Origin: Sphaerisporangium corydalis
GTDB lineage: Bacteria > Actinomycetota > Actinomycetes > Streptosporangiales > Streptosporangiaceae
DNA length: 64,000 nt
Direction of reading: 5' to 3'
NCBI RefSeq assembly: GCF_025506355.1
Contig: NZ_JANZYP010000019.1
Coordinates: forward strand, 1 to 64,000
Position numbers and translations under genes: made by a program
Notes under the pieces: model-generated
Database searches by the model: none
Told to the model about the DNA's origin: nothing
Seen by the model: the letters and a program-made list of their open reading frames with translations, nothing else
Shown: in pieces, positions 6,038 through 52,707 of the stretch
Position numbering within the stretch: the stretch's first letter is position 1
Layout of the letters: each line of letters starts with the position of its first letter

Positions 6038-6059
6038 CAGCGGACGAACGGTGGAGCGG

Positions 6060-31429: not shown

Positions 31430-32485
31430 ATGCACACGAACGACTTACCAGTCCCCTCCGGCGCGCCGGCCGCCCCCGGTGTCTCCGAGGCCGACCGTGG
31501 CCATCCCGAGATCCAGCGCCTGCTCGACCAGGCCGTGGCCGGCGGCGGCGGGCCCGGCATCGTCGCCGAGATCAGATCGGGCACCTCGACGCCGTGGTTC
31601 GGCGCGGCGGGGGTGGCCGACCTGGCGACCGGTCGCGAGCGCCGGCCGGGCGAGCACTTCCGCATCGGCAGCTTCACCAAGGCGTTCACCGGCACGGTGG
31701 TCCTGGGGCTGGTGGCCGACGGCGCCCTGACCCTGGACGACACGGTGGCCAGGTGGCTGCCCGGCGTCGTGGAGGAGCACCTCGGCGCGGACGGCACCAC
31801 GATCACCGTCAGACGGCTGCTCAACCACACCAGTGGGCTTCCCGACGCCATCCTCGACCAGGAGACCCCGCCTGCCGAGGCACCCGGCACACGCTTCATC
31901 TACTCCAAGGTCAACTACAACCTCGCGGGAATGATCGTCGAGCACGTGACCGGCTCGACGCTCGCGGACCAGATCGAGAGCCGCGTCGCCGTGCCGCTGG
32001 GCCTGACCGGGACCTACCTTCCCGGCGCCGGCAACACCCTCCGCGAGCCGCACGCCCGCCACTACAGCCGGGAGGAGGAACCCGGTCACGACGTGAAGAT
32101 CCACGACGTGACCGAGGCGGATCTGAGCTGGGCCTGGGCCGCAGGCGGCATGGTCTCGACGACCTCGGACCTGCACCGTTTCCTGGTCGCCCTGCTCGGC
32201 GGCGACCTCCTCCCGCCCGCGCAGCAGGAGGAGATGTTCACCACCGTCTCGACGGAGGGCTCGGACTGGGTCCCCGACACCGGGTACGGCCTCGGCGTCT
32301 ACTCCCAGACGCTCCCCTGCGGGATCACGCTCTGGGGCGGCGGCGGTTTCATCAAGGGCTCGATGACGTACGCGATGGGCGACCGGCAGGGCACCCGCAC
32401 CCTGGTGAGCAACCTGAACGGCGACTGGAACGACTTCCTGCCCACCTTCACCGACCTCCTGGACACGCACTTCCACCCCCGGTGA
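31430..32485 (+). CDS. Serine hydrolase, beta-lactamase/transpeptidase family
   Basis: A 351-residue class C beta-lactamase-like (penicillin-binding fold) protein. The nucleophile motif SxxK is SFTK (Ser81, Lys84; RIGSFTKAFTG), and LLNHTSGLPD follows in the usual place. The second motif, normally Y-x-N in YSN..Y.LLG, reads YSKVNYNLAG (157-166), with Lys at the Asn position. The third motif region is WGGGGFIKG rather than KTG/HxG. No signal peptide is seen, so it may be cytoplasmic, typical of esterase or D-aminopeptidase members. The gene begins directly behind nested palindromes and is therefore tightly controlled, although no regulator of suitable orientation is adjacent. Substrate unknown. 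Confidence 0.82.
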   Translation: MHTNDLPVPSGAPAAPGVSEADRGHPEIQRLLDQAVAGGGGPGIVAEIRSGTSTPWFGAAGVADLATGRERRPGEHFRIGSFTKAFTGTVVLGLVADGALTLDDTVARWLPGVVEEHLGADGTTITVRRLLNHTSGLPDAILDQETPPAEAPGTRFIYSKVNYNLAGMIVEHVTGSTLADQIESRVAVPLGLTGTYLPGAGNTLREPHARHYSREEEPGHDVKIHDVTEADLSWAWAAGGMVSTTSDLHRFLVALLGGDLLPPAQQEEMFTTVSTEGSDWVPDTGYGLGVYSQTLPCGITLWGGGGFIKGSMTYAMGDRQGTRTLVSNLNGDWNDFLPTFTDLLDTHFHPR

Positions 32486-32511: not shown

Positions 32512-33033
32512 TCATGGTTCGCAGCGGACCAGGTCGCCGTGGAGGAAGACGTCCCGGGCGGTCGTGGTGTTCTTCTCGCCTCCGGCCCAGGTCAGCACCT
32601 CCCCGGGCTCAAGGGCCGCGAGGTCCTCGGCCGTGAAGGGCACCCGTCCGTTCAGGCCCCTGTTCCGGACGCCGCCGTTGACGCCGGCGACGTAGGGGAC
32701 GCCTTTTCGCAGCTCGGTGAGGGTGCCGCCCGTGGACACCCAGCCCTCGGGCGGGTCCTGGAAGACCCGGATGTCGCGCACCCCCGCGGTCCAGCCGCCG
32801 TTGTGCACGCTCCACGCGGCGGCCTCCCCGTCATCGCCGGTGTCGGCGATGACGGAGAAGTCCCGCGCCAGGTAGCCGGGGCACCCGGCCAGCAGCAGCC
32901 GCGCGCCGCCGCCTTCGAGGCGTTCGACGGCGAGGACGCCCTTCGGTGCGGGCGTGCAGCCCGCGCCGGAGAAGGCCAGGGCGAGCAGGGCCACGGCCGC
33001 GTACCCGAGCCCTCGTCTTCTCCCGCGCGTCAT
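32512..33033 (-). CDS. Small lipoprotein downstream of the RHS gene (possible immunity protein)
   Basis: A 173-residue exported protein with a basic head (MTRGRRRGLGY), a hydrophobic segment AAVALLALAFSGAG and a Cys at residue 26. This is a near-lipobox (SGAGC lacks the usual Leu at -3), suggesting membrane anchoring after lipidation. The mature part is compact, with further cysteines (LLLAGCPGYL and a C-terminal LVRCEP) and a WSVHNGGWTAGVRDIRVF segment; I do not recognise the family. ATG 33033 is preceded by AGAAGGGG. It begins 59 bp after the RHS stop codon on the same strand. Position directly behind a polymorphic-toxin-like gene is where immunity genes lie, but this is positional inference only. 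Confidence 0.6.
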   Translation of the reverse strand: MTRGRRRGLGYAAVALLALAFSGAGCTPAPKGVLAVERLEGGGARLLLAGCPGYLARDFSVIADTGDDGEAAAWSVHNGGWTAGVRDIRVFQDPPEGWVSTGGTLTELRKGVPYVAGVNGGVRNRGLNGRVPFTAEDLAALEPGEVLTWAGGEKNTTTARDVFLHGDLVRCEP

Positions 33034-33092
33034 CGTTCCCCTTCTCTTACGGAGCCGACCCGAAGCCTGCGAGACCGGCTGGAAAGTGTTTC

Positions 33093-36000
33093 CTACGGGA
33101 TCGGCCCGAAGTGCACGGGCGCCCATTGTGTGTAGTCGCCCCAGAACAGGTTGGCGTCCACTTCGAACTTGTTGGCGGCCGCGGAGTTACCGTACTTGCG
33201 CTTCGAGACCCCGGCGGCCGTCGTGTACCTGGCGATGAAGTCGGTCGCCGAGACGGAGTTCGCCCACTGCCTGGAGTGCACGGCCTCGTGCCGTTCCAGG
33301 TCCGGCCCGAACTCGTCCGCCACCTCGCGGCCGGCGACCTGGGCGATGTCGTCCCGGCGCTGCTTCTCGTCGTGGAGCCTCTGCTGGTAGTCCTTCTTGG
33401 AGTACGGGTAGAACAGGACGTCCCCGACCGTCATCGGCTGGTCCAACCCCGGCGAGCCGCCGTAACAGACGTACTGCCGGGAATGCCGCTCGCAGCCCAT
33501 GTGGCCGAAGCCCGGCAGCACGGTGAACGTCAGGGCCAGCGCGTTCGCGCCGTTGGCGTTGTTGCCCCAGTGGAACGGGTGCCACAGCAGGGCGGTCAGC
33601 AGGTTGACCTTGCCGGTCCCGTGGCAGAAGCACCCGCCGGGCGGCGGCTTCGGTGCCCGGTTCGGCGTCGGGGACGGCCGGGGCCTGGGCTTCTTGTGCT
33701 TGGGCGGGGTGGCCCTGCCCGTCTTCGGGTCGTAGCCGACATCCTCCTGCACCTTCTTCGTGCAGTACTTCAGGTCGTACTGGCAGGAGTTGGGCTTGGA
33801 CCCGATCTCCTCGCCCGTCGGGTCGCTGAAGGTGGCCGGGTTGTCGTTCCCGTACGAGTAGCCGTTGAGCGACTGGCTCTGGTCGGTGGACAGGACGGGG
33901 TCGACGCTCAGGAACCTGCCGATCACCGGGTCGTACATGCGGGCCCCGACGTAGGTCAGCCCGGTGTCGGGATCGGCGGGTTTGCCGAGGAACCCCTTGT
34001 CGTCGGGCCAGCCGCCGCCGGTCGCGGTGCCGCGCGGCCCGCCGAACGGGGTGGTGTAGCGCTTGCTGACGGCCTGGCCGCTCGCCTCGACCGCCAGCGA
34101 CGACGTGCCGTGCGCGTCGCCCGCGAGGAAGGAGACCTTGTTCGTCCCGCCCTGCGTGGTGCGCACCGCGAGCACCTGGGAGTCCGCCGCGTAGAAGCGG
34201 GTGCCCCAGGTGGTGACGGCGCTTCCCGTCTTCTTGGAGTGGATCTCGGTGGCGCCGAGGTACAGCACGCTCTCCCCGTCGCCCACGGCCCGGCGGATCA
34301 GCAGGGACCCGTCGGCGTCGTACAGGTAGGCGGTCGTTCGGGCCCCTTGGGTGAGGGTGGCGATGCGGCCCTGCGCGTCCCAGGTCAGCACCTGGCCGTC
34401 GCGCGTGTGCGTGTTCCCTGACTTGTCGTAGGAGTAGGTGGCGGGCGCCGTGGCGCAGGAGCCGGCCGTGACCGCGGTGAGGGCGTGCCGCTTGGCGGCG
34501 TCGCCGTAACAGTAGGTCGAGGTGGTGGCGGTGGACCCGTTGTACCGCGTCTCCGTGGCCCGGAGGCCCGCGCTGGTGTAGGTGTACCCGGTGCGATACG
34601 GGGCCGCGCCGCCCAGGGTCGTGCCGGTGCAGTCGTCGGTGGCCGGCGTCCACGCCTCGGTCAGGCGGCGCTGGCCGTCGTAGCCGAAGCACTGGAAGTC
34701 GGTCCCGCCCCCGCCGTCCTGGGTCGGGGTGTCGGCGATCTCGGTGACGTTGCCCGCGTCGTCGTAGTGGTAGGTCAGGTCCTGCGGCTTGACCGGCGCC
34801 GACTGGGGCATGGTCACGAAGGACCTGGTCAGCCGGTCGGTCCCCTCCTCGAAGGTGTTGTTGATGTAGGTCTTCTTGGCGTCGGTGGCCCCCGACAGGC
34901 CGAGGGTGAACTGCTGGGCCTGCCCGAGCGCGTCGTAGGAGGCCGTCTGGAGGTAGTCGCTGGTGCCGGTGATCCCGGCGACCTGCCCCGTCGGCGTGTA
35001 GGTCAGGCCGACGGTCTCGCCGGCCAGGCCCCCGGCGGCGGGCTGGGTGGAGTTCTTCAGGGTGCCGTCGAGGTTGTAGTCGCTGCCGAAGGTGTAGGAG
35101 GACTTCACCGCCCCCGAGGTGACCAGCGGGTCGTCCGGTGCGATGTCGATCTCGGTGCTGGTCGCGCGGTACTGCGGGTCGTAGGCGAGGACCTTCCTGG
35201 TGTACGCCTTGCCCGCGACCCCGCCGTCGTAGCTTGTCGCGGAGGTCAGCTGGCCCGGCGCCACCGTGTCGTAGGTCCAGGCGGCGAGCTTGCCCGCGTC
35301 GGTGCGGGCCCCGGACCACAGCCCGGTCTTGCGGCCGAGATCGTCGTAGCCGTACAGCAGCACCGAGCCGTTGGCGCCGGTGACCGTGTCGGTCTGGTCG
35401 AGCGCGTCGTACTTGACGGTGCTCGCGCCCTTGTCGGGGTCGGTGATGCCGGTCCGCCGCCCGAACAGGTCGTAGGTGTAGGACCAGACGGCGCCGTCGG
35501 GGCCGGTGACGGCACGCTGGTCGCCGCCGGGCGTGTAGGTGAAAGCGGTGGAGACGTAGCCGCTGGACGACTGGGAGCCGTACCCGGTGTCGGCGGGCGA
35601 GGGCGAGTTGTACTCGCGGCTCTCGACGGTGCGCCCCAGCGCGTCGGTGATGGTGCGGGAGGCCTTGCCGCCGGTGACCGCGGTGGTGGCGGTGGAGTCA
35701 CCGGTGTAGGTGGCCGTGGTCGACCACTTGCGCACCCCGAACGTGGAGAACGTGCTGGTGGTCTGACGTCCCGCGCCGTCGAAGACGACGCTCGTCTGCT
35801 TGGGCGCCTGGCCGTACTCCTCCCGGGTGTAGACGGCGTTCGGCGTCTGCTTGGAGTCGAAGATGTCGGTGTAGGTCTCGTAGGCCAGGCCGCGCGCGTC
35901 GTAGCGGGTGTCGGAGAGCAGCCGGCCGCCGTTCGGCGTGGGCGCCTGCGTCTGCATGGGCCGCAGCAGCGAGTCGAAGATCTGGTACGACCAGGTCGCG

Positions 36001-39000
36001 GTGGTGGACGACTTGACGGTCCCGGTCCCGATCGACGGCGCCTTGCCGCGCTGGAACACGTAGGAGTAGGTGAGGCTGGCGCTCTGGCCGCCGTCCTTGC
36101 TCCGGTCGGGCAGCCACACCCCGGTCAGCCTGCCGAGGCCGTCGTAGGTCTGCTCGGTCTTGGCGTCGCCCGGGTCGTAGGTGCGCACCGGCAGGCCGCG
36201 CGTCCCGTCGAGGAAGGTGGTGACCTTCTGCTGCTTGACGTTGGTGACCACGGTCTTGGCGGGGACGCCCGCGCCGGCCGGCGTGTAGGCGGTGGTGGTG
36301 GGGTGGCCGCCCGCGTCGGTGACGACCAGCGGCCTGCCCAGCGTGTCGAAGGTGGTCTTGTCCGTGCGCTGCCAGCCGGTCGGCGGGCGGTCGTCGCCGG
36401 TGACGGCCGCCGGGTAGCCGGTGGCCCGCCCCGTCCAGGACTCCTCGCCCTTGGTGGGCTTCTGGCTCGCCGACCAGCCGGTGGCGGCGGCGTTGTCGTA
36501 GACGGTGGCGACGTCGGACAGCACGTCGCCCGGGGCGGTGCCGTCGGCGGGCAGCGACAGGCCGGCCTCACTCACCGAGCAGGCGCGCCCGACCTCGCGC
36601 GTGCGGGAGACGAGCGAGGTGATGCCCTTGCCGTCGTCGCGCGCGTACCAGGTCCGGGTGCAGGTCTCGTCGCCGCTCTTGGCGGTGTCGCCCGTGGCGT
36701 CCTGCCTGACCGCCATGCCGTAGCCGTCGTACGTCGTGGAGGTGGTGGTGGTGCGCCAGGTCTTGGGGACGGTGAGGTAGGTGTGCCGCGACGTCCTGCC
36801 GGTGCGCACGTAGTACGCCTCGGTGTCGGCGTACGACTTGTGCTGGGTCGCGGTCCTGGCCGACCAGGGGTCGTCGACCGTGACGTCGACCGGGGCGGAA
36901 CCGTCGTAGGTGATCACCTCGCGGGGGACGCCCGCGTACTGCCCGGCGTCGGTGAGGTCGGGGACGTCGAGCCCGGTGAGGTCGGTCCCGGGCACCGAGA
37001 CGGCGCGCCGCCTGTCGGGGTCGACCGTCCTCGGGCTGCCGGCTTTGAGCAGCCGGTCGCCGTTCATGCCCTGCATGTAGACCGAGACGCTCTTGCCCCG
37101 GGTCTCGCCGAGGGCGCCGGTGTACGTGGTGACCTGCTGGTAGCCGCGCCACGTCGACCAGGTGCGCTCGTCGGCCGGGGTGAACGGGCTGTCGTCGTAG
37201 TGCCAGGCCGGCTTCTGGTAGTCGTAGGAGTACTCGGCCGGCGGGTTGTCCCCCGCCGGGTCGGCGGTGTTCACCGCGATCACGCGGTACTTGTTGAACC
37301 AGTCGACGGACGCGTCGGTGGCGCCGTTGACGTGCCAGAACTGCGGGTAGCAGGACAGCGAGGCGTTGTCGTCCTCCGCCTTCGGCATCTGCGAGCCGCG
37401 CACGCACTCGGGTTCGTTGTAGGAGACCGTGGTGATCGCGCCGGTCTCCGAGGTGACCGTCTCGACGCGCGGCCTGGTCAGCGGCAGGATGTTGCCGCCG
37501 CCCGGCTGGGTGCCGCCGGCGACCCGGTTGGGCCGGGTCAGGTAGGTGAACGAGACCGGGTCGAGCGGCAGGGGCGCGCCCGAGCCGGCGGTGGAGCCGG
37601 TGCGCACGATCGAGACCAGGGTCAGCGTCTGGTCGGAGGAGTTGCCGATGTCGCCGCCGTCCAGGTACTTCTGGGTGAACGCCCAGGAGTCGACCGGCTT
37701 GTACGCGGTCCCCGACAGGACCGATGACTCGATCTTCACCAGCCGTTCGCGGGAGAAGAAGGCGGGGCCCTCGGGAAGGCAGTCGGCCTTGGCCTCGTCT
37801 TTCGAGCAGATGCTGTCGAAGGGGACGTCGGGCCAGTTCTGCGCGGTGGCCTTGGTCAGGCTGGAGCAGTCGGCGGCCGTGCAGCGCTCGCTGTAGGAGA
37901 ACGTCACCCTGTCGGGGGCGTCTGCGGTGAACAGGGTGTCCGATCGCTGCCCGTAGAGGATCTTGTCGAGGTGGCCGCCGCGCGTGTAGACCGCGCTCGC
38001 GGTGTCGGACTTGTTCTTGCGGTAGTAGTTCGTCTCGGGCGTGTACCAGTACGACATGGCGTTGCCGTGGGTGTCCTCGACGTAGTCGAGGTTCCACCGC
38101 CACGCCTGGGTGACGGCGCGGTCGGCGAAGGCGTCGCCCTTGGTGTACCCGGGCTCGCCGGAGTCGTCGCCGTACACCGGGACCGTCCACACCGAGTTGG
38201 TGCGCTGCGTGCCCGCGCCGCTCAGCTTGTTGAGGCCGAACACGTACTTGGTGCCGTCCCCGGTGACGACGGTCCAGTACTCCCCGTCGTCGTCGCCGTT
38301 GTCGGCGCCCGGGGAGCGGGTGACGGTGGAGGCGTCGTCGTTCCTCAGCCGCCACCTGCCGGTTGTGTCGTCCTTGACGAGCTCGCTCGACCTGCCGTCG
38401 AGCACCAGTGAGGCGTTGTCGTACTTCCAGCACTCGTCGTACTGCTTGTCGTGGCCGTCCTCGTCGCAGGAGGCGTACTGGCGGTCGATGTAGGAGGTGG
38501 CCGCCAGGTCGAAGCCCTCGCCGACCGAGGTGCCCTGGTTGTTGCTGGTCGCCGTGTGCCCGTCGACGCCGCCCGAGTCGTAGGACAGGTCGAGGGAGGG
38601 CGCGGGTCCGGCGGCGGGCTCGACCGGGGTCATCGGATAGGACCAGGTGAAGGAGCCGGCGCCGCCGCCCGCCTCCCAGGTGGACGACGCGGCCAGCGGT
38701 GTGGCCGCGAAGTTCCCCGATCCGTCGGGGGCCTCGCCGCCCACGCCTGCGGCGTCGGCGGCCACGGCCAGCACGGCCGGTGACGCGCCGAGGGTGACCG
38801 GCGCGGAGAGGGTCTGCGCGGTGTAGGCGTTCACCGAGTCCAGGGGGGTCCGCGTGCGGCACTCCGCCAGCTCAGGGGTGGTCAGCGCGCAGGCGGGGAG
38901 CAGCGCGAGCCGGAGCCGGCCGCTCCAGCCGCCGCCGTAGGTGGAGGCGAAGGAGGCGTAGCCGACGCTCAGGTCCGCCTGGCCCGGGGCCGGGGCCGAC

Positions 39001-39425
39001 ACGGTCAGCAGCACGCCGTCCACTCCGGCGGCCTCGGTGGCCGCGCGGCCGAGCACCTGGACGCGGGCCGGGCCGGGGGCGGCGCCGGCCTTCGGTGCCA
39101 GGGTGACGGGCAGCCCGCCCACGGTGACGCCCGCCGCGCCGGCGGGGACCTGTGCCGCGCCGGCGTCCGGCCACCGGGTGGCCGCGCGTTCCCTGGCCGC
39201 CCGGCCGGCCGAGGCGTCGTCGCGTGCCCTGGACGCGGCGGCGTGCTCGCGGGACTTCTTGGCCCCGGTCGCGTCCATGGCCCTGACCTCGCTGACCCGT
39301 TGCCTCGGCACGGCGGGGGCGCCGGGTGGACCGGCCGCGTACGCCACCGGCGTCACTCCCACGGGTAATGACATCGCCACCGCCATCGCGGCCACCAGGG
39401 CAGCACGTATTCCAGGCGCGCTCAT
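33093..39425 (-). CDS. Giant secreted RHS-repeat protein with a variable C-terminal HExxH domain
   Basis: A 2110-residue protein. Sec signal peptide 1-30 (ALVAAMAVAMSLPVGVTPVA). A long N-terminal beta-rich region is followed by many YD/RHS repeats from about residue 1000 (for example GVWSYTYDLFGRRTGITDP, partly: YTYDLFGRRTGI; GYDDLGRKTGLW; YLYDADGSLLIRR). The RHS-associated core is near 1800-1870 (FLGKPADPDTGLTYVGARMY; NGYSYGNDNPATFSDPTGEE). The last about 239 residues are unlike the repeats: a Pro-rich linker, Cys-rich CFCHGTGK and a helical domain with HEAVHSRQW (His2046, Glu2047, His2050) and a later FEVDAN (Glu2088). HExxHxxQ with a distal Glu is the signature of a zincin metallopeptidase, so the tip is a candidate toxin or effector domain. 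GGAGG lies 8 nt before ATG 39425. Neighbours: LamG protein upstream, lipoprotein downstream. Confidence 0.9.
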   Translation of the reverse strand: MSAPGIRAALVAAMAVAMSLPVGVTPVAYAAGPPGAPAVPRQRVSEVRAMDATGAKKSREHAAASRARDDASAGRAARERAATRWPDAGAAQVPAGAAGVTVGGLPVTLAPKAGAAPGPARVQVLGRAATEAAGVDGVLLTVSAPAPGQADLSVGYASFASTYGGGWSGRLRLALLPACALTTPELAECRTRTPLDSVNAYTAQTLSAPVTLGASPAVLAVAADAAGVGGEAPDGSGNFAATPLAASSTWEAGGGAGSFTWSYPMTPVEPAAGPAPSLDLSYDSGGVDGHTATSNNQGTSVGEGFDLAATSYIDRQYASCDEDGHDKQYDECWKYDNASLVLDGRSSELVKDDTTGRWRLRNDDASTVTRSPGADNGDDDGEYWTVVTGDGTKYVFGLNKLSGAGTQRTNSVWTVPVYGDDSGEPGYTKGDAFADRAVTQAWRWNLDYVEDTHGNAMSYWYTPETNYYRKNKSDTASAVYTRGGHLDKILYGQRSDTLFTADAPDRVTFSYSERCTAADCSSLTKATAQNWPDVPFDSICSKDEAKADCLPEGPAFFSRERLVKIESSVLSGTAYKPVDSWAFTQKYLDGGDIGNSSDQTLTLVSIVRTGSTAGSGAPLPLDPVSFTYLTRPNRVAGGTQPGGGNILPLTRPRVETVTSETGAITTVSYNEPECVRGSQMPKAEDDNASLSCYPQFWHVNGATDASVDWFNKYRVIAVNTADPAGDNPPAEYSYDYQKPAWHYDDSPFTPADERTWSTWRGYQQVTTYTGALGETRGKSVSVYMQGMNGDRLLKAGSPRTVDPDRRRAVSVPGTDLTGLDVPDLTDAGQYAGVPREVITYDGSAPVDVTVDDPWSARTATQHKSYADTEAYYVRTGRTSRHTYLTVPKTWRTTTTSTTYDGYGMAVRQDATGDTAKSGDETCTRTWYARDDGKGITSLVSRTREVGRACSVSEAGLSLPADGTAPGDVLSDVATVYDNAAATGWSASQKPTKGEESWTGRATGYPAAVTGDDRPPTGWQRTDKTTFDTLGRPLVVTDAGGHPTTTAYTPAGAGVPAKTVVTNVKQQKVTTFLDGTRGLPVRTYDPGDAKTEQTYDGLGRLTGVWLPDRSKDGGQSASLTYSYVFQRGKAPSIGTGTVKSSTTATWSYQIFDSLLRPMQTQAPTPNGGRLLSDTRYDARGLAYETYTDIFDSKQTPNAVYTREEYGQAPKQTSVVFDGAGRQTTSTFSTFGVRKWSTTATYTGDSTATTAVTGGKASRTITDALGRTVESREYNSPSPADTGYGSQSSSGYVSTAFTYTPGGDQRAVTGPDGAVWSYTYDLFGRRTGITDPDKGASTVKYDALDQTDTVTGANGSVLLYGYDDLGRKTGLWSGARTDAGKLAAWTYDTVAPGQLTSATSYDGGVAGKAYTRKVLAYDPQYRATSTEIDIAPDDPLVTSGAVKSSYTFGSDYNLDGTLKNSTQPAAGGLAGETVGLTYTPTGQVAGITGTSDYLQTASYDALGQAQQFTLGLSGATDAKKTYINNTFEEGTDRLTRSFVTMPQSAPVKPQDLTYHYDDAGNVTEIADTPTQDGGGGTDFQCFGYDGQRRLTEAWTPATDDCTGTTLGGAAPYRTGYTYTSAGLRATETRYNGSTATTSTYCYGDAAKRHALTAVTAGSCATAPATYSYDKSGNTHTRDGQVLTWDAQGRIATLTQGARTTAYLYDADGSLLIRRAVGDGESVLYLGATEIHSKKTGSAVTTWGTRFYAADSQVLAVRTTQGGTNKVSFLAGDAHGTSSLAVEASGQAVSKRYTTPFGGPRGTATGGGWPDDKGFLGKPADPDTGLTYVGARMYDPVIGRFLSVDPVLSTDQSQSLNGYSYGNDNPATFSDPTGEEIGSKPNSCQYDLKYCTKKVQEDVGYDPKTGRATPPKHKKPRPRPSPTPNRAPKPPPGGCFCHGTGKVNLLTALLWHPFHWGNNANGANALALTFTVLPGFGHMGCERHSRQYVCYGGSPGLDQPMTVGDVLFYPYSKKDYQQRLHDEKQRRDDIAQVAGREVADEFGPDLERHEAVHSRQWANSVSATDFIARYTTAAGVSKRKYGNSAAANKFEVDANLFWGDYTQWAPVHFGPIP

Positions 39426-39530: not shown

Positions 39531-42500
39531 TCAGTCGCCGATGACGGCGTCCATCTGGTCGGAATCGGACATGGCGCCCGCCCAGAGCCGCAGGTCGCTG
39601 ATCCGCGCCGGAAGGAAGTACTTCCAGGAGGTCCCGCCGAAGCCCTTGCCGGCGGCGAACTCACCCGAACCCGGGGTCGCGGTGTACACCATGTCGAGGT
39701 CGTTCTGTTCGTGGCCGACGTAGAGCCGCACGACCGTCCCGGTGGGGGCCAGGGCGTCGTACACGCCGGTCAGCCGGACGGGGCTGTCCAGGCTCGCCTC
39801 CTCGTCGGAGCTCACCCAGGTCCTGGTGCCGTCCTTGGCGACCCGGCCGAACCGCCAGAAGCCGACCGGGACGCTGATCTCGTCACCGTCGTCGTCGAGC
39901 CGGGTCTCCTTGCCGGTCAGCTCGAACCAGATCCCCCACGAGGTGCCGTCCGCGGTGCGCTGCCCGGCCACCTGGCCGATGGACCCGATCGGCATCGCGA
40001 GGACCTTGTCCCGGTCGAGTTCGACCTTGGTGGTCACCGTGAAGGAGCCGGTGTCGTCGACGACCGAACCGGGGGTGGTGGCCGCGTCGTCCACGCCGTC
40101 CAGGGCCAGGCTCTCGCCGTCCAGCGACGCGCCGTCGGCCAGCGTCAGCGGGCGGCCGTATCCGGAGAGCGTGTCGGGCAGCGTGGCCCCGGTGGCGCCC
40201 GCGGGATCCCAGTCCGCGACCAGTTCCACGTCGTTGTCGCCCGTGGCCGCCGACTCCGACCGCGCCTCCTTCGCGATCTCCTCAGGGGTCAGGACGCGCT
40301 GCCAGGCGGCGACCTCGTCGATGGAGCCCGGGAAGTAGTACTGGAAGGTGCCGGCCCACTTGTACCGGCCGATCTCCAGCGGGCCGGTGGCCGACCACGA
40401 GCCGGCCGCGGTGGTGGTGCCCTGGAGCAGGCCGTTGAGGTAGAGGCTCAGGCGCTGCGTGGCCGGGTCGTAGGTGCCGGCCAGGTGGGTCCAGGCGTTC
40501 ACCTGGGCCGCGTTGTCCTTCGCGCACACCCCGGAGTACGCCTTGCCGTTCGCCTCGTCCTTCTCCTTGACCCCGAAGCAGTAGGACACGCGGTCCTTGT
40601 CGTAGTACAGGTTGAAGGGCGTGTAGCCTCCGGCGCCGTCCTGCGACAGCACGATGCCGTGGGAGGTGGTCTTGTCGATCCGCGCCCAGGCCGCGACCGT
40701 GTAGGCCGAGCGCGTCTCCAGCACCGGTCCGGGGGTGGCCGCGTACCCCGTGGTGCCGTTCAGGCTCAGCCCCTTGTCCGGCCCGGTGGCCGGCAGCTCG
40801 CCGCGGCGGCCCCGCCCGTCCCGTACGGCGCCGGCGGACGGCGTGGCGTTGTGGCCCGCCACGCCGGTGGCGTCGACGGCGGCCCCGCCGTCCTCGTCGA
40901 AGTGCCAGCGGCCGACGGGCCCGGAGCCCGCGGCGACCAGGAAGTCCACGACGGTGGTGGCGCCGTCCCTGCCGACGTTGTCCCTGGCGCGGACGTACAG
41001 GCTGATCGTGCCGGACGCCGGCGGGGTGATCACGGGCTTGACCGTGGACCCCGTGATCGGCGCCGACCAGGCCGGGCTGGTGGACAGGCGGTACTGGTAC
41101 GACACGTTGCCGGCGTCGCCGGCCGCAGGCGCGAACGTGAACGCCGAACCCTGCCCGGGGCCGCCGGCCGGCGCGCAGGCCGTGGTGGTGCACGCGGTGT
41201 ACGGGGCGCCGGGCGTGACCACGGGCGCCTTCGGCGCGGTCGGGTCGACCTTGAAGTAGCACCATCCGACGGTGGTGTCGTTGGAGGGGCCGGACACGAA
41301 CTTGGTGTAGTTGCTGTAGTAGGAGCGCGTCCACGCCCGGTAGCGGTACAGCACCCCTTCGGTCAGCATGGGCGCCGACCTAGTGACCTTCACGTTGTCG
41401 CCGACGTGCCCGGTCGTCGGCTGCTCGGTGATGGCCATGGCGTCTGCCCAGGTGGTGCCGCTCTTCTTGGCGATGTGCATCCCGGCCCGCAGCATCGCCC
41501 CCGGCTCGCCGCCCGGGGCGGTCTGCGGGACCGCCGCCAGCAGGGGCGTGGGGTCGGAGACGACCGCGGGCGCGGTCTCCTTGGTCTCGCAGATCGTGCC
41601 GGAGCCGGTCACCAGGCCGATCCCGGTCGCCGCCGCCGGCACCCCCACGTAGTCCACGACGAGCACGGCGTCGTTCCTGAACCGCTTCCAGGCGGAGGTG
41701 TCGCTCTCGTCGTGCGCGCGCACCTCCAGCGTCAGCTTGGAGAACTTGCCCGCCGCGAAGTCCTGCACGGTCGGGGTCAGGTTCTCGTTGGGTTCGGCGG
41801 AGTTGTCGGCGAAGTCGATCGGCGCGGCCGGCTGGTCCGGGTCGCACGCCGAGCCCCGGCCCGCCGACACGTCGCGGTCGACCATCCAGTCCAGCTCCTT
41901 GGGCCGGCCCGCCCAGGTCGTGGACGACGAGACGTTGTTGGTGCGGACGAGGTCGACCCACCGGGGTGAGCACTGGAACGCCCACGGCTCGGTAACGCGG
42001 AACGTCGCGCTCAGCACCCGCTTGCCCTTGAGACTGGCCGGCGAGAACTGGAAGTACAGCCGCTGGGTGTAGCCGGGCCCGCAGTAGTAGCCCTGCCAGG
42101 TGCCGCAGTGGCCGGCGCCCTCCCCCTGGTTGCCGGAGCCGTTGCCCCAGTTGTAGGACGTGTAGCCGTCCGAGCGCAGCAACGTCCTGTCGGTCTCGCC
42201 CCAGGTGACGCTCGGGTCGATGTAGACGGGGTAGGCGGCCTGGTCTTGCTGCTGGAGCAGCGTGACGTCGGGGACCAGGGTGAGGGTGTCCTCACCGACC
42301 TGGATGGGCAGTTCGGCGTGCCCGGCGCCGGGGGCCGGGCCGTCGGCGGCGTCCGCCTCCGTGGTGGCGTCCGTGGTGGCGGCGAGCGCGCGCCCGGCGG
42401 GCCGCTTCGCCGCGCCGGCCTGGCCCGCGGCGGCGTCGCCGGTGGAGTCCCACATGGCGGCGGGCGGCGAGGTGAACACCTCGGTGGCGTTCCCGTCGCT

Positions 42501-43202
42501 CGCGGACATGCCGCCGTCCTCGGTCTGCTCCACCTTCAGCCCGGAGGACGTGACCGCGTACTGGATCCGCCTGAGCGCGGGGTTGGCCGCGGCCGCCGCG
42601 GTCGTGACCACCAGGACCTGGCGGAAACCCTCGGTCGTCGCGGTCATCCTGAGGTCGACGCCGGGCAGCACGCCCGGGTAGGTGGCGTTCGGCCCGTCCA
42701 GCACCGGCGCCGGGAGGGTGCCCGGCCAGCCGAGCGACAGGGTCCGGCCGTCACGCGTCATCGTGACGAGCCGGGCGCCGTCGCCGCCCCCGGAGAAGGC
42801 GATCCGCACGGCGGCGGCGCGTGGCCCGACGCTTCCGTCGGCGTGCCGTTCGAGCGTGTCGTCGGGCGGCACCCACGCGCCGTCCGTTCCCTTGACCCGG
42901 ACGGGCACGCTGGACTGTTCCAGGCGGAACGAGCCGCCGTCAGGGTTGGCGTAGGTGGTGGTGAACTCGGTCCTGGCCGAGGTCACCTCGACCGGCTCCC
43001 CGGTCTCGGCGGCCCGGCCCGACGCCCGCCGCGCCTCGGTGAGCCGCCCGGCGGCACCATCGGGAGCGGCCCGCCTCACGCCGTCCGCCGTCGCGACGGC
43101 GGGACCGTCCGCCGAGGCGGCGGGGACCCCCGCCGTCAGCAACGCCCCCGCCACGGCCACGGCGGCGGCCACCCGCCGGCCCCGTGCCGTACCCCCGGCC
43201 AT
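39531..43202 (-). CDS. Secreted LamG-domain protein upstream of the RHS gene
   Basis: A 1223-residue exported protein. Signal peptide about 1-32 (RRVAAAVAVAGALLTAGVPA). The N-terminal about 300 residues form a beta-rich region (LEQSSVPVRVKGTDGAWVPP) found in many actinobacterial LamG/RHS partner proteins. A central region with DNRxxx-like carbohydrate-binding folds and an Fn3-like stretch follows (about 630-760). Two concanavalin-like LamG domains come last: about 770-1000 (SAYTVAAWARIDKTTSHGIV; RLSLYLNGLLQG; PLEIGRYKW; SIDEVAAWQRVLTPEEI) and about 1020-1223 (GSFTVTTKVELDRD; RISDLRLWAGAMSDSD). LamG domains bind glycans or proteins. ATG 43202 is chosen because it starts the signal peptide and GAGGGG is 7 nt upstream. 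It precedes RHS proteins so often in actinomycetes that a joint surface role is likely. Confidence 0.87.
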   Translation of the reverse strand: MAGGTARGRRVAAAVAVAGALLTAGVPAASADGPAVATADGVRRAAPDGAAGRLTEARRASGRAAETGEPVEVTSARTEFTTTYANPDGGSFRLEQSSVPVRVKGTDGAWVPPDDTLERHADGSVGPRAAAVRIAFSGGGDGARLVTMTRDGRTLSLGWPGTLPAPVLDGPNATYPGVLPGVDLRMTATTEGFRQVLVVTTAAAAANPALRRIQYAVTSSGLKVEQTEDGGMSASDGNATEVFTSPPAAMWDSTGDAAAGQAGAAKRPAGRALAATTDATTEADAADGPAPGAGHAELPIQVGEDTLTLVPDVTLLQQQDQAAYPVYIDPSVTWGETDRTLLRSDGYTSYNWGNGSGNQGEGAGHCGTWQGYYCGPGYTQRLYFQFSPASLKGKRVLSATFRVTEPWAFQCSPRWVDLVRTNNVSSSTTWAGRPKELDWMVDRDVSAGRGSACDPDQPAAPIDFADNSAEPNENLTPTVQDFAAGKFSKLTLEVRAHDESDTSAWKRFRNDAVLVVDYVGVPAAATGIGLVTGSGTICETKETAPAVVSDPTPLLAAVPQTAPGGEPGAMLRAGMHIAKKSGTTWADAMAITEQPTTGHVGDNVKVTRSAPMLTEGVLYRYRAWTRSYYSNYTKFVSGPSNDTTVGWCYFKVDPTAPKAPVVTPGAPYTACTTTACAPAGGPGQGSAFTFAPAAGDAGNVSYQYRLSTSPAWSAPITGSTVKPVITPPASGTISLYVRARDNVGRDGATTVVDFLVAAGSGPVGRWHFDEDGGAAVDATGVAGHNATPSAGAVRDGRGRRGELPATGPDKGLSLNGTTGYAATPGPVLETRSAYTVAAWARIDKTTSHGIVLSQDGAGGYTPFNLYYDKDRVSYCFGVKEKDEANGKAYSGVCAKDNAAQVNAWTHLAGTYDPATQRLSLYLNGLLQGTTTAAGSWSATGPLEIGRYKWAGTFQYYFPGSIDEVAAWQRVLTPEEIAKEARSESAATGDNDVELVADWDPAGATGATLPDTLSGYGRPLTLADGASLDGESLALDGVDDAATTPGSVVDDTGSFTVTTKVELDRDKVLAMPIGSIGQVAGQRTADGTSWGIWFELTGKETRLDDDGDEISVPVGFWRFGRVAKDGTRTWVSSDEEASLDSPVRLTGVYDALAPTGTVVRLYVGHEQNDLDMVYTATPGSGEFAAGKGFGGTSWKYFLPARISDLRLWAGAMSDSDQMDAVIGD

Positions 43203-43287
43203 GGTCTGTCCCCTCGCCCACGAACGTCTTTTCAAGATCGGGCACTTCCTTAGGTTCGTTCTGGTTCATGCGGGCTCATCCGGCGTG

Positions 43288-46200
43288 CTAGCGCAGGTCG
43301 AACGCCCTGGTCGTGGTCTGGACGACGCGGTCGCCCGCGGTGTCCCAGGCCTCGGCCCTGAGGCTGACCGCGCCCTTGGTGAGAGCGAGCCTGGGGTAGG
43401 TCAGCGAGGCGGTGAACGTGCCGTCGTGGTCGCGGCGGATGTCGACCGGCCGCCAGTTCGCGCCGTCGTCGGTGCTGGCCCACAGCTTCAGGCCGGCGAT
43501 GGCGGGCATGCGCCCGGTGCTCTGCGAGTGGTAGGCGCTCACCGTGAAGGTGTGCCGGCTCCCGGCGGGCACCGTGTTGTCCAGCGCGACGCTCGCGGTC
43601 ATGTCGTAGGACACGAACACCACCGGTTCCGGCCGGCACGGCGCGGTGGCGCCGTACAGGGTGCCCGCGCAGACGACGCCGGGGAGCACGGTGTCCTTGG
43701 CCACCGCCGCGGAACCGAAACTCCACTCGGTGTGCGTCCGCAAGGAGGTGTCGTCGAGCGCCAGCCGGTAGGAACCGGCCGCCTCCGGCAGCGTGAACGA
43801 GGGGAACCCCGACGTGCCGGCGGGGACCTCCACGCCGTCCTTGTACAGGTGCACGCCGCCGATCCACGACCCGCCGAACTGGTCGTGCCCGCCGATGTGG
43901 GTGAAGTTGGGCCACAGGGTGTCGCCCTGCCGGCAGACCGAGCACAGCGAGATGATGTTCTGCGTGCCGGGCGGGGCCTTCGGGTCGGGCAGCTTGGCGA
44001 CCCGGTCCGGCACGGTCACCGTGCCCGGCATGAACGGCCCGGCGTTCCAGTGCCGGGTGAGGTGCGCCGGACGGTCCCACACGTCGAGCGTCAGGGGGTT
44101 CTCGGTGCCGGCGGCGCTCGCGTTGCCGATGTCGAGCGCCTCGGCGTCGAGCGGGCCGATGTACTCGCGGCGGGTTCCCGGCCCCTTCAGCACCGGCAGG
44201 AAGGAGGGGAAGTACAACATCTGCTTCATCCTCATCGGCACCGAGCTGGCGTAGACGTCGGCGGGCGTGCCGGAGTGGTAGTACGCGTCCACCGTCGCCA
44301 GCCGCCGGTCGGTGAGCCTGTAGTGCAGCGAGGCGGGCACGCGCCCCTCCTCGATGGGGTGCAGCGCGTAGGCGTAGGACGAGTCCGGCGTGCCCTTCAC
44401 GGTGACCGTGACCGGCTCGGCCGCCAGCCGCTTGAGCAGCGCCCGGGCCTCGGCGGGGGGAAGCGTCACGTACGGGATGCCGATGGTCGTCGAGGGGTCG
44501 GCGTCGGTGGGGTACACGCCCTCGGGGATGGTCGGCCCGCCGAAGCAGGAGCCGAGCGCCCCGGACGGCCACAGCAGGACGCCGGCCGCGCCCGCGTCCT
44601 TGAGGTCGTGGAACCGGTCGATCCGGCCGGCGCACTCCTGGCCGTCGTCGAGCAGCGCGAGTCTGCCCTTGAGGTCGAGCCCGGCGAGGTCCTGCGGGGT
44701 GCCGGTCCCGGCGTCGACGAGCCGGGCCGTCAGCGTGCCGTCGAAGGGGATCTGGCCGTCCATGAGGCCCCCGTTGGGGGTGGTCCCGTCGTGCGGCCAG
44801 ATCTCCGGGTGCAGCGTCAGCGGGTGGCGCCCGCCCACCTCCATGGTCACCTCCGGGGCGGTCAGCGCCCAGCTCGAGGTGTAGAGGAACCCGCCCTTCC
44901 GCACCGGCCTGGTGGGGTTCACCCACTGCCGGATGAACGTGGCCGCCACCTCGTAGCCGCCCCAGATGTCGCCGTCCGTCGTGGTCCGCTGGTAGAAGGT
45001 GTACGCGCCCAGCGCCGGGGTGACGGCCGACGGCCGGGGCGTGTCGAAGGTGATCTGGCGGAGGTCGCGCGCGTCGAGGGTGACCTCGGTGTCCCCGTCG
45101 ACCGTGACCTCCGGCGCGATCATCCACGCGTCGTTCTGGGTGTACGCCGAGGGGTCGATCCACATGTACGACTCGGTGACGCTGTAGGTGCCCTTCGGCA
45201 CCAGCACCTTGCTCACGCCCGTCGACACGTGCTGGGCCCGCGAGGACATCGAGCCTCGGCCGCCGGACACGTCGAGCACGTCGAGCAGGCTCGCGTCGGC
45301 GGGGGCGCCGTCGCGGCCGAGGGTGCGGATGGTCAGCGCCACCTTGGGCGGCTCGCGGAGCAGGCCGACGGGCGTGGTCAGGTGGACCCCGTGGCCGTCG
45401 GTCGCGGTCACGGCGCCCGTGTAGGTGCCGGCCGCGAGCGCGGCCACGTCCAGAGTGAGGGTGGCCGTCGCGGTCCCGCCCGCCGGGATCGTCACGGTCG
45501 CGTCCGCGGTGAGCGCGCCCGGGGGCGCGGCCCGCCCGTCGAGGGTCGCCAGCGTGGGGGTCAGGGTGAGGGTCACCGGCTGGTCGGCCAGGTTGCCGTA
45601 GGTGAGGCGCTTGGCGATCGGGGCGCTGCCCTCGGGCACCAGGCCGTAGTCGGCGCTCGGCGTGGCGGCGTGGACCTGCTGGGCGACCGCGGTCCCGACG
45701 TCCAGGCGTCCCGCGCCACGCTCGTAGACGGTCAGGCCGACGTCCTTGGCGGTGCTCATCAGCGCGGCCTTGAGTTGCGGCCCCGTCCAGCCGGGGTGCC
45801 GCTGCGCCAGGATCGCCGCGGCGCCGGAGACGTGCGGGGTGGCCATCGAGGTGCCCGACAGCGTGGTGTAGGAGTCGTCGACCGGGGTGCCGAGACCGGT
45901 GCCCGCCGCGCGGGCGGCGACGATGTTCTGACCCGGCGCCGCGATGTCCGGCTTGAGCGCCCCGTCGAGCAGGGGGCCGCGACTGGAGTACGACGAGAGC
46001 TTGTCGCTCTTGTCGGTGGAGGCGACCGTCAGCGCCGACGCGGCGACGCCCGGCGTCTCGATCGTCTCGTCGGCGCCGCTGTTGCCTGCGGCGATGACGA
46101 ACAGCGTGCCCGTGGAGGCGGTCAGGTCGTCGACCGCCTGGGTGAGGGGGTCGCCGCCGTCGGTCGCCTGGCCGCCGATGCTGATGCTGACGACCCGCGC

Positions 46201-47208
46201 GCCGCTGGAGGCGGCCCACTGCATGCCGTCGATCACCGAGCTCCAGTCGCCGGACCCGGAGTCGTCGAGGACCTTCCCGATGACGAGTTTCACGCCGGGG
46301 GCGACGCCCTTGTACCTGCCGCCGGAGGCGGCGCCGCTGCCGGTGATGATGGAGGCCACGTGCGTGCCGTGCCCGTTGCCGTCGGCCACCGGCACGCCCG
46401 GGACGAACGACCTCTCCTCGACGACCTTGCCGGCCAGGTCCGGGTGGGTCTCGTCGATGCCGGTGTCCAGGATGGCGACCTTGACGCCGGTGCCGTCGTA
46501 CCCGGCGGCCCACGCCTGCGGGGCGCCGATCAGCGGCACGCTCTGGTCGAGGTCGGCCTTGACCTTCCTGTCCAGCCACAGGTGCGCGAGCCCCGCGCCG
46601 AGCGTGCGGGCCGTCGCGTCCTGGCCGTGCACGGCCGACCAGAAGGCGGCGGTGCCGGCGTGCGGGACCGAGAGGGCGGCGCCGTGGACGCTGTCGAGCG
46701 TCCGGGTCGGCGTGCTGGCGGGGAGCGCGTCGGCCGCGCCTTGGATCGCCGCCCTGCCGGTGCCGGGGTACTGCACGATCACCGGTGTCCCGGACGCCTG
46801 GTCGTCGGCGTAGCCGTTCTCGGCCAGGTACTTCACGTCGAACAGCTCCCGGTCGAGCCGGCCCGCCGCGATGAGCGGCAGCGCGTCGTCGGGGTAGACG
46901 TAGAAGCCGCCGGGGCCGGCCATGCCCCGGAAGACCGGCAGGCGGTGGCCGGGCCTCGGGGCGGCCTTGGCCTGGAAGCCGTAGTGGCCGCCGCCGGCGT
47001 CGGTGAGCGTCACCTGGTCGCCGGTGATCAGGGTGACGACGTGCCTGCCCGGCTTGACGCCGTCGAGCGATATCGGCGCGAGGGGGGTCGCCGGGGACCG
47101 GTCGCCGTCGTTCGCCGTGGCGGGCGGCGCGGGCGACGCCACCGCCATGGCGATCACCATCGCGGCCGCGGCCGGCCCGCGCCTCAGCGGGCCTTTCGGG
47201 ATCTTCAT
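43288..47208 (-). CDS. Secreted S8 (subtilisin-like) serine peptidase, multidomain
   Basis: A 1306-residue exported peptidase. Signal peptide about 1-32 (AAAAMVIAMAVASPAPP), then a propeptide (about 50-215). The catalytic domain (about 225-500) has Asp248 (VAILDTGID), His280 (GNGHGTHVAS), the oxyanion Asn in AAGNSG and Ser454 (LSGTSMATPH), all intact. A beta-sandwich-rich C-terminal half of about 800 residues follows, with a PA-like insert near 830-880 (DAGAAGVLLWPSGALG). Large S8 peptidases of this form are secreted or cell-wall associated. It begins about 14 kb before the end of a continuous minus-strand block containing the LamG and RHS genes (85 bp gap to LamG, no hairpin seen), so it may process those proteins. 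A possible 34-codon ORF lies just upstream. Confidence 0.92.
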   Translation of the reverse strand: MKIPKGPLRRGPAAAAMVIAMAVASPAPPATANDGDRSPATPLAPISLDGVKPGRHVVTLITGDQVTLTDAGGGHYGFQAKAAPRPGHRLPVFRGMAGPGGFYVYPDDALPLIAAGRLDRELFDVKYLAENGYADDQASGTPVIVQYPGTGRAAIQGAADALPASTPTRTLDSVHGAALSVPHAGTAAFWSAVHGQDATARTLGAGLAHLWLDRKVKADLDQSVPLIGAPQAWAAGYDGTGVKVAILDTGIDETHPDLAGKVVEERSFVPGVPVADGNGHGTHVASIITGSGAASGGRYKGVAPGVKLVIGKVLDDSGSGDWSSVIDGMQWAASSGARVVSISIGGQATDGGDPLTQAVDDLTASTGTLFVIAAGNSGADETIETPGVAASALTVASTDKSDKLSSYSSRGPLLDGALKPDIAAPGQNIVAARAAGTGLGTPVDDSYTTLSGTSMATPHVSGAAAILAQRHPGWTGPQLKAALMSTAKDVGLTVYERGAGRLDVGTAVAQQVHAATPSADYGLVPEGSAPIAKRLTYGNLADQPVTLTLTPTLATLDGRAAPPGALTADATVTIPAGGTATATLTLDVAALAAGTYTGAVTATDGHGVHLTTPVGLLREPPKVALTIRTLGRDGAPADASLLDVLDVSGGRGSMSSRAQHVSTGVSKVLVPKGTYSVTESYMWIDPSAYTQNDAWMIAPEVTVDGDTEVTLDARDLRQITFDTPRPSAVTPALGAYTFYQRTTTDGDIWGGYEVAATFIRQWVNPTRPVRKGGFLYTSSWALTAPEVTMEVGGRHPLTLHPEIWPHDGTTPNGGLMDGQIPFDGTLTARLVDAGTGTPQDLAGLDLKGRLALLDDGQECAGRIDRFHDLKDAGAAGVLLWPSGALGSCFGGPTIPEGVYPTDADPSTTIGIPYVTLPPAEARALLKRLAAEPVTVTVKGTPDSSYAYALHPIEEGRVPASLHYRLTDRRLATVDAYYHSGTPADVYASSVPMRMKQMLYFPSFLPVLKGPGTRREYIGPLDAEALDIGNASAAGTENPLTLDVWDRPAHLTRHWNAGPFMPGTVTVPDRVAKLPDPKAPPGTQNIISLCSVCRQGDTLWPNFTHIGGHDQFGGSWIGGVHLYKDGVEVPAGTSGFPSFTLPEAAGSYRLALDDTSLRTHTEWSFGSAAVAKDTVLPGVVCAGTLYGATAPCRPEPVVFVSYDMTASVALDNTVPAGSRHTFTVSAYHSQSTGRMPAIAGLKLWASTDDGANWRPVDIRRDHDGTFTASLTYPRLALTKGAVSLRAEAWDTAGDRVVQTTTRAFDLR

Positions 47209-50600: not shown

Positions 50601-50694
50601 GCCCGAAGGCCGCGAGCTCGGGCTCGCGCCCGATGAGCGCGGGCACCGACATCAGGCGTGAGGCGCCGGACTCGGGCGTGGCCGCAGCGGTCAT
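47671..50694 (-). CDS. LAL-type LuxR regulator with N-terminal AAA ATPase
   Basis: A 1007-residue large ATP-binding LuxR regulator. The AAA/NACHT-like domain opens with IGREPELAAFGQAL, followed by Walker A GEAGVGKS (45-52) and a Walker B-like VLAVEDVHWADD (about 160-171). A long helical, TPR-like middle (about 350-930) precedes a C-terminal LuxR HTH (about 945-1000; LSPRELEVVRLVATGATNRE, SRSPKTVAAQVNSAMRKLGV). ATG 50694 is used, with GGGAG 7 nt upstream; the frame continues upstream without a better start. Divergent from the peptide-type ABC importer, which it may regulate in response to a nutrient. LAL proteins of the MalT type respond to inducers with ATP. Confidence 0.92.
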   Translation of the reverse strand: MTAAATPESGASRLMSVPALIGREPELAAFGQALARGPAIVLVEGEAGVGKSRLLREFLGSPVAGRHRSLVAWCPPFREPYTLGPIVDALRQGTDRVGGLRLSALAGALRPLFPEWAGDLPPAPDQLDDARAVQHRLFRALAEVLDRLRVSVLAVEDVHWADDATLEFLLFLVARHPQPISLVVTYRPEDVPPGSLLLRLSSRPPAGTARLRLAVGPLDVADTGRLVSSMLDDEPVSPEFAALLHQHTDGIPLAVEESVRLLHDRADLARRDGEWVRRRLSDIDVPPTVRDAVLERVGRLSAPARAVLRAAAVLAAPEDAATLGAVIAAPAPEAEAGVAEAAACGLLREDGGLLEFRHALAARAVYEATPGPDRRVMHLRAGHALAARATAPVFRLARHFREAGEVAAWMRYAERAADLALATADAAGGETLLYELITHPDVPATGVARLAAKMPFTTFMGDERFRVLAASLRTALESLGPSPVEAAEIRYELGRVLTLMEDFESGWSELATAVRHLPDGSYRAAKAMTILGWPRESTAPVSRHLRWLRRAVPAAESLPEAERQDLLVERVGALVLLGEESGWSEGARIPSVAATAGEARRHGKGHLNLGDAGVRWGRYADAARHLATGAAMAEQYQFPRYAQTIAVTRLHLDWFTGDWQGLAERADALAGDPEIQPVTRLEAVLVRALLGEATGAPGAGEQFTLVFTDARRHLGSEVVAEPAAALARSLLARGDAEGALRVTGEPMRLIARKGVWLWAAELAPVHVHALVMAGRADEAAGMIDAFAAWTHGREAPAPEAAVALSRAVLAEGRAAAAATTPEAAGAATTPEQPVAGTAPVAGTAPDRTGVRGAAGAYARAADAYAEAAEVWRWLPRPYDMLLARERQAGCLLRAGETEAATSLARAVLEALTALGARAAADRVARMLRDQGVEPRGRGRRGYGDQLSPRELEVVRLVATGATNREVATILSRSPKTVAAQVNSAMRKLGVTSRTALAVSAIESGVVS

Positions 50695-51090
50695 GGCCGG
50701 GCTCCCAACCGTGGGGTCACGGCCCGGGAGACCGCTGCCCGGTGCCGGTGGTCTCCTCGGGAAGCACAGCGCCGGACGTGCCCTCGGGCCACGAACGGGA
50801 CCGGGCCGGCACTGGAAGACCTGCCGATACCCGAATTCGATCATCCTAATGCCCGGTGCCCGCGCCGCGCCAGGCAGCCCCGAATCAGGCATTTCCCACT
50901 ATTCATGTAGGATTCCCGCAGTGAGGTGGTAATGGGGGCGGTACGCCGCCACCAGCACCGATCCCTCCCCCACAGAGCAGCAACCACCGGGCCCCGCGCC
51001 CGGCGACGCGCGCCGCGACCGCTCGCACCCCCGGCGAGCCCGCGGCCGTCTCGTACCAACGGCCGTACGGCTGTCGACCAGGAGAAACCA
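50695..51090. promoter_or_regulatory. 396-bp divergent regulatory region with possible leader ORF
   Basis: This separates the LAL regulator from the importer. A TAGGAT (50908-50913) could be the -10 of the importer. GAGGTGG just before ATG 50932 is a credible ribosome site for an in-frame upstream segment starting MGAVRRHQHRSLPHRAATTG that would run into the binding-protein frame without a stop. The real lipoprotein start is GTG 51091. A CCGGGC/GCCCGG hairpin near 50990-51007 and the palindrome GCCGTACGGC near 51062 follow. Confidence 0.35.
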
Positions 51091-52632: not shown

Positions 52633-52651
52633 CCGGCGCCTCCCCTCCCCC

Positions 52652-52676
52652 CGTGCCAGGGCCTCGCCTTGGCACG
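52652..52676 (+). terminator. Imperfect hairpin between binding protein and permease genes
   Basis: CGTGCCAGGG (52652-52661) pairs with CCTTGGCACG (52667-52676) with one mismatch and a 5-nt loop. Position after a binding-protein gene is typical of partial terminators or mRNA-stabilising stems. Confidence 0.5.
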
Positions 52677-52707
52677 AGGGTCGTTCCACCCCGATGATCG
52701 GTTTGCG

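Follow-up and report, generated by a model that had tools for sequence, protein, structure and literature searches.

What does a giant RHS protein of an actinomycete carry behind its core, and what is the small exported protein encoded directly after it? The question is raised by a locus of Sphaerisporangium corydalis (RefSeq assembly GCF_025506355.1) on contig NZ_JANZYP010000019.1, positions 1 to 64,000; the window, below, is this whole stretch of 64,000 nucleotides. A sequence-only reading of the window had proposed that the end of the RHS protein is a zincin-like toxic tip and that the adjacent lipoprotein is its immunity protein. We find it probable that the locus encodes a polymorphic toxin of the RHS type, whose zincin tip would act on the envelope, together with its immunity lipoprotein; the pair would work like the type VI effector VgrG2b and its immunity protein PA0261. 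Our comparisons demonstrate the anatomy of the locus, its conservation, the linkage of tip and lipoprotein in every copy found and the accelerated, recombining evolution of the tip. The elements concerned are as follows.

33093..39425, minus strand: RHS protein, 2110 aa, with RHS_repeat, Rhs_assc_core and YD_repeat_2x matches and an N-terminus judged by eye to be signal-like
33813..34052, minus strand: RHS-associated core region, ending in DPTG (TIGR03696 at residues 1792-1871)
33096..33812, minus strand: C-terminal tip, residues 1872-2110 (239 aa), a basic/proline linker and then a zincin-like domain from residue 1930
33267..33290, minus strand: HEAVHSRQ, residues 2046-2053, predicted zinc-binding and catalytic motif (HEAVHS.QW invariant in 9/9 tips)
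33150..33167, minus strand: FEVDAN, residues 2087-2092, with the predicted third zinc ligand Glu2088 (F and E invariant in 9/9 tips and 11/11 aligned stand-alone relatives)
32512..33033, minus strand: small exported protein, 173 aa, with a probable lipobox Cys26, candidate immunity protein (downstream of the tip in 9/9 genomes)
39531..43235, minus strand: LamG-domain partner protein, 1234 aa (Pfam Laminin_G_3, E 3.2e-36), upstream of the RHS gene and in the same direction

The coordinates and motifs of the sequence-only reading, an open reading frame of 2110 residues at 33093-39425 with a tip of about 239 residues bearing HEAVHSRQ and a distal FEVDAN, proved right. RHS/YD repeats are recognized in the protein by Pfam and NCBIfam (PF05593, E 2.2e-07; TIGR01643, E 2.6e-14), and the RHS core model TIGR03696 (Rhs_assc_core) matches residues 1792-1871 with E 4.2e-18. 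Because this match stops at residue 1871, the core ends where the tip starts. The protein therefore has the RHS/YD repeats and the RHS-associated core ending in DPxG that mark RHS polymorphic toxins; by analogy with known RHS proteins, DPTG (residues 1868-1871) is the expected self-cleavage boundary. The small exported protein also lies where it had been placed: its ATG is at 33033, 59 bp after the RHS stop, and its frame of 173 residues, with a probable lipobox, ends at 32512. Third-position G+C is 0.92-0.97 in the RHS, lipoprotein and LamG genes, supporting all three as genes.

The whole protein has a single HExxH, HEAVH at 2046-2050. The composition of the tip itself would give 0.017 copies in the tip by chance, and HExxH is invariant in all nine tips that we recovered (the window's and eight relatives), so a chance motif was rejected. 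The eight relative tips are only 54-64% identical to the window's, and all nine are open reading frames in which HEAVHS, then QW, the distal FE and four cysteines are invariant. The tips thus carry the conserved HExxH and distal Glu of gluzincins. PF13699 (eCIS_core), which we take to be the PVC-metallopeptidase domain and to have borne the name DUF4157 formerly, matched 0/9 tips in a Pfam scan, and the Tox-MPTase models of Pfam matched no tip either. HEAVHSxQ and FE, present in 9/9 tips, agree with the HExxHxxQ...E signature of the eCIS_core/PVC-metallopeptidases as it is given in the available part of Zhang et al. 2012 (PMC3482391). DUF1459 appeared in two of the nine tips (best E 0.029) and was set aside as below the cut-off.

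The tip profile also retrieves small stand-alone actinobacterial proteins, as 20 weak matches. A motif filter (HExxH plus distal FE) recovered 14 of these; the match in genome G042 was read by hand, and five were not recovered (loci L074, L085, L087, L088 and L090). Eleven of the stand-alone proteins were aligned and have HExxHxxQ and NxFE in common. When a profile of eight of the nine tips was compared with these eleven by hhalign, the two matched with a probability of 98.5 (E 1.8e-15) over 122 columns, and 50 column-shuffled controls gave a probability of at most 1.0. By sequence the tip is a zincin, because its residues are invariant and its profile is homologous to stand-alone zincins. Among the latter, four of seven scanned matched PF13699 (E 0.00046-0.14) with scores of 12.7-20.7 bits against a cut-off of 22, and one matched Tox-MPTase4 at E 0.21; no Pfam cut-off was reached among the seven, and no NCBIfam family among three scanned. 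The stand-alone zincins (L073-L092 and L025) share the pattern HEARHxxQWA...NxFERxAGLxDGGY.

How closely are tip and lipoprotein linked? Among 341 genomes of the family Streptosporangiaceae the tip was found strongly in nine, with one further weak match (G062) that is a stand-alone zincin. A profile search found the close form of the lipoprotein in the same nine genomes and no others, directly downstream of the tip in 9/9, so the co-occurrence check that had been proposed came out in favor of linkage. In most genomes only some first-look candidates (10 or 11 each) were scored, and weak, distant copies of either protein could escape. The nine loci form one block with the same gene order, and in the eight other tip genomes a LamG relative is encoded beside the RHS gene (8/8). 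The block is patchy, since ten other genomes of the window's genus showed neither the tip nor the close lipoprotein; one of them, G004, has a distant lipoprotein relative. Of the 30 core loci read, that of G221 among them, ten, the window's included, are at least 84% identical; the tip follows nine of these, and in the tenth (G230) the contig ends within the same linker. The nearest of the other cores (60% identity) and the 19 beyond it have tails that by eye are different, two of them being cut by a contig end. The sequence-only reading had held that a tip kept with all RHS orthologues, and no linked lipoprotein, would speak against a toxin-immunity pair; the tip is indeed present in 9/9 complete close orthologues, and the lipoprotein is linked in all nine.

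Plasmids, phages and viral contigs gave no match to the tip, and phage or plasmid cargo was rejected on this ground. A known defense system was likewise rejected, as PADLOC matched neither of the window's two proteins, and neither tip nor lipoprotein reached a named family in Pfam, NCBIfam or PHROGs.

The tip changes faster than the core: over 36 pairs protein identity is 79-95% for the core and 54-97% for the tip, with 60-95% for the lipoprotein (28 pairs). A variable tip directly after the core is a further property of RHS polymorphic toxins that we find here, seen in this faster divergence, in localized replacement and in the other tails of more distant cores. Between G226 and G105, 1433 of 1500 nucleotides are identical in the last part of the core and 711 of 758 in the downstream flank, compared with 421 of 531 in the tip and 449 of 525 in the lipoprotein; tip and lipoprotein have therefore both diverged between conserved flanks, as in cassette exchange. 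Synonymous differences in G105/G226 fall at 40 of 119 sites in the tip and 46 of 458 in the core (p 3e-9), and in G105/G220 at 45 of 122 and 31 of 456 (p 2e-15), these pairs, like G408/G402 below, having been chosen after the identities were seen and all p values being uncorrected. This synonymous excess in the tip points to replacement by recombination and not only to fast change. Amino-acid changes are enriched in the tip over the core in G105/G226 (p 0.008), and G408/G402 has 64 nonsynonymous and 11 synonymous changes in the tip versus 54 and 40 in the core (p 9e-5). A nonsynonymous rate above the synonymous rate in the tip has a one-sided p of 0.054 in G408/G402 and is far from significance in G105/G226 and G105/G220. 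The ratio of the two rates (dN/dS) is below 1 for the tip in 35/36 pairs. The DNA past the lipoprotein gene is less than 55% identical in 31/36 pairs, and the lipoprotein is therefore kept where its flanks are not.

One locus presents the pair on its own. In G042, which belongs to another genus of the family, separate searches gave a weak match to the tip profile (E 1.2e-4) and one to the window lipoprotein (E 8.8e-4), and the tip-like gene lies directly before this distant lipoprotein relative. The tip-like frame (L093, G042:C40, about 5866-6541) reads HExxHxxQW, then a stop codon, then N-x-F-E...N-x-x-W-G-x-Y as in the tips. In 12 kb of sequence around the pair no RHS core matched at E 1, and the locus looks like a decayed stand-alone cassette.

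The lipobox cysteine, Cys26, is invariant in 8/8 aligned lipoproteins and is also present in two distant relatives. Genome G402 was excluded from the lipoprotein alignment, the lipoprotein identities and the lipoprotein dN/dS because its frame is shifted: just after the RHS stop (L032), the frame departs from the eight relatives over the lipobox region, through an assembly error or a real change. NPCBM_assoc appeared in three of eight lipoproteins (best E 0.045) and was set aside, below the cut-off. When 200 genomes of the order were searched with a wider lipoprotein profile, 33 matched, the nine tip genomes and G042 among them. Loci L134-L153 represent small Streptosporangiaceae lipoproteins related to the candidate immunity protein; they form a wide family whose upstream genes vary, and a single genome can have as many as three matches. 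At one of these, L140 in G221, a 133-residue frame about 1.3 kb before the lipoprotein gene ends in a stretch that by eye resembles part of an RHS core; the window's core, run against it by tblastn, matched nothing at E 1e-5.

Several results weigh against the interpretation as a toxin-immunity pair. The wider lipoprotein family was found at 32 further places, and at none of the 20 that were fetched did an RHS or tip match lie beside it (0/20; the 12 left unfetched were mostly weaker matches), so the family is larger than its role at tip loci. The residue at lipobox position -3 in the window is Gly, which departs from the usual consensus. Between G220 and G105 the tip is identical at 408 of 531 nucleotides and the lipoprotein at 509 of 531; the tip has therefore changed without the lipoprotein. 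Divergence of tip and lipoprotein correlates with a rho of 0.59, compared with 0.76 for tip and core and 0.86 for lipoprotein and core, across 28 non-independent pairs, and thus no specific co-evolution of tip and lipoprotein was detected beyond the core. The enrichment of amino-acid changes in the tip is not general (G105/G220, p 0.28, not significant), and the choice of pairs after the fact belongs here as well. We saw no case in which an unrelated tip had replaced this one on its core, the tip being on 9/9 complete cores of at least 84% identity and on 0/20 more distant ones. A search for homologous tips fused to other RHS cores, as the sequence-only reading had suggested, found none among 341 genomes of the family and 296 of the class, 10 or 11 candidates being scored in most of them, so that weak distant copies could escape; tip replacement is supported within one core lineage, and transfer between cores was not seen. 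The AlphaFold2 model of the tip (nine sequences) has a mean predicted local-distance score (pLDDT) of 59.8, too poor to judge the zinc site; the zincin proposal is supported by invariant residues and profile homology and not by structure.

Foldseek matched this poor tip model to nothing at E 0.001, and VIA-align returned BlaR1 alone (two entries; best Z 2.2, rmsd 5.7, 104 aligned), which we do not count as evidence. The order of its elements (strands 69-71 and 74-77, a helix at 114-126 with HEAVH and a helix at 157-161 with FE) resembles the published outline of PVC-metallopeptidases. The lipoprotein model (pLDDT 75.7) resembles FnIII sandwiches, with Z up to 7.3, rmsd 3.2 and 91 aligned, in a range that the tool calls common; it also had no Foldseek match at E 0.001. 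Searches of solved structures with tip, lipoprotein and stand-alone profiles returned nothing below E 0.3.

What else could the block be? The tip may be a toxin and the lipoprotein not its immunity protein: it could be a household lipoprotein that is co-transcribed and was recruited from a large family in actinobacteria, or it could help in delivery. The 20 fetched wider-family loci without an RHS or tip match (20/20), the G220 tip replaced beside a lipoprotein 509/531 identical to that of G105, and the lack of detected co-evolution beyond the core speak for this explanation. Against it are a close lipoprotein that adjoins the tip in 9/9 genomes and was found in no other of the 341, the joint divergence of the two genes between conserved flanks in G226/G105, and the recurrence of the pair in G042 without an RHS core; we regard it as unlikely, although it is the strongest of the alternatives. 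Slightly less probable still is a role for the zincin tip within the RHS machinery, as a releasing or processing peptidase and not as the toxin, with the lipoprotein as an anchor or assembly partner. Most PVC-metallopeptidase domains are described as releasing peptidases in the part of Zhang et al. 2012 available to us (PMC3482391), and the wider lipoprotein family without RHS would fit such a role. In the present proteins, however, the zincin is the last domain, with nothing after it to release, and it changes faster than the core, which would be unusual for a processing part; the same source also calls some versions of the domain, often C-terminal, likely additional toxins (PMC3482391).

Drift is the remaining explanation: the tip would be inactive, and the linkage would reflect inheritance of one LamG-RHS-lipoprotein block. 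One gene order in all nine loci, the lipoprotein of G402 with its frame shifted over the lipobox and the interrupted tip-like gene of G042 are in its favor. Against these stand nine of nine tips that are open and keep their active-site residues invariant, a tip dN/dS below 1 in all but one of 36 pairs, and a lipoprotein retained while the DNA past it falls below 55% identity in 31 of 36; we consider drift very improbable.

Returning to the toxin-immunity interpretation, we can outline how the pair may work. The RHS protein and its LamG partner would be exported, as their signal-like N-termini suggest. As in known RHS proteins, the RHS shell would enclose the tip and cut itself after DPTG. The freed tip, to judge from its invariant residues and its homologs, would be a gluzincin-like zinc protease using His2046, His2050 and Glu2088; released at a rival cell, it might cleave a protein on the outer face in a zinc-dependent manner. 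The lipoprotein, on the outer face of the producer's own membrane, would bind the tip and protect the producer and its kin. In actinomycetes the target is generally not enclosed by an outer membrane. We offer, as a speculative extension that is more doubtful than the pair itself, that LamG and RHS proteins form a two-protein secreted weapon of single-membrane actinomycetes, which kills rivals by cleaving proteins with zinc on the membrane's outer face, and whose immunity lipoprotein stems from a large household family of lipoproteins, where other orphan immunity genes may be found.

The closest functional parallel is VgrG2b, as described in the available part of the report on it (PMC6899460). 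Its C-terminal zincin is toxic once sent to the periplasm but does no harm in the cytoplasm, its toxicity is lost when the catalytic Glu is changed, and it is neutralized by the exported protein PA0261, whose homologues in Enterobacteriaceae are predicted lipoproteins; many relatives of the domain are classified as DUF4157 (PMC6899460). Like VgrG2b/PA0261 and Tpe1-Tpi1, which are type VI metallopeptidase effector-immunity pairs, the present locus has a C-terminal HExxH with a distal Glu and a small exported protein encoded downstream, and residues H935, E936, H939 and E983 of VgrG2b would correspond to H2046, E2047, H2050 and E2088 here (PMC6899460). The two systems differ in that our tip sits on an RHS protein in an actinomycete and the other on a type VI spike (VgrG) in Gram-negative bacteria, and neither the tip nor the stand-alone profile gave a significant match to any solved structure.

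RHS proteins with metallopeptidase tips were already known (Zhang et al. 2012, PMC3482391). The present protein resembles RHS polymorphic toxins with Tox-MPTase1-5 tips in having an HExxH metallopeptidase after the RHS repeats; for these tips the accessible table of Zhang et al. 2012 gives no immunity family, whereas here a candidate is linked in 9/9 (PMC3482391). Its zincin is C-terminal on an RHS protein, unlike PVC-metallopeptidases, which are usually N-terminal. An immunity protein that is a predicted lipoprotein also has a precedent in Imm65, described in the part of that collection we consulted as its only such case; the partner of Imm65 is Tox-JAB-1, unlike here, and its relation to the window lipoprotein was compared by Pfam scans alone, which named none (PMC3482391). 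Bacterial teneurin-like proteins, which occur in Gram-positive and Gram-negative bacteria, also have an RHS/YD shell, self-cleavage, a variable C-terminal toxin and, almost always, a downstream immunity gene; the toxin of the pair presented in the available text is an ADP-ribosyltransferase, unlike the tip here (PMC13018210). Our literature search on RHS metallopeptidase tips and lipoproteins, which covered subscription journals thinly, found no account of this pair. If our interpretation is correct, a metallopeptidase RHS tip gains a linked immunity protein, a partner for which Tox-MPTase1-5 have no entry in the accessible table of Zhang et al. 2012 (PMC3482391), and the envelope-acting zincin strategy of type VI effectors extends to actinomycetes. 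Natural tip variants on near-identical cores make specificity directly testable, for example by challenging one lipoprotein with two tips (G220 and G105).

Around the block, the gap between the LamG gene and the RHS gene downstream of it is 105 bp. The LamG gene is in turn preceded, at 52 bp, by an S8 subtilase gene (1306 aa, 43288-47208, minus strand), and a gene for a serine beta-lactamase-family protein (31430-32485, plus strand) is convergent with the lipoprotein gene, 26 bp apart. A larger operon with either was rejected, as tblastn of the sequence retrieved on either side of the other eight loci found neither and found LamG at 8/8. Beyond the subtilase lies the gene of a large LuxR-type regulator (47671-50892, minus strand), which was not found in this retrieved sequence either. 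Further on, 50899-55989 holds long minus-strand frames (833 and 757 aa) with atypical codon-position G+C and no Pfam match, and a plus-strand frame at 50926-52632 looks more like a gene than these.

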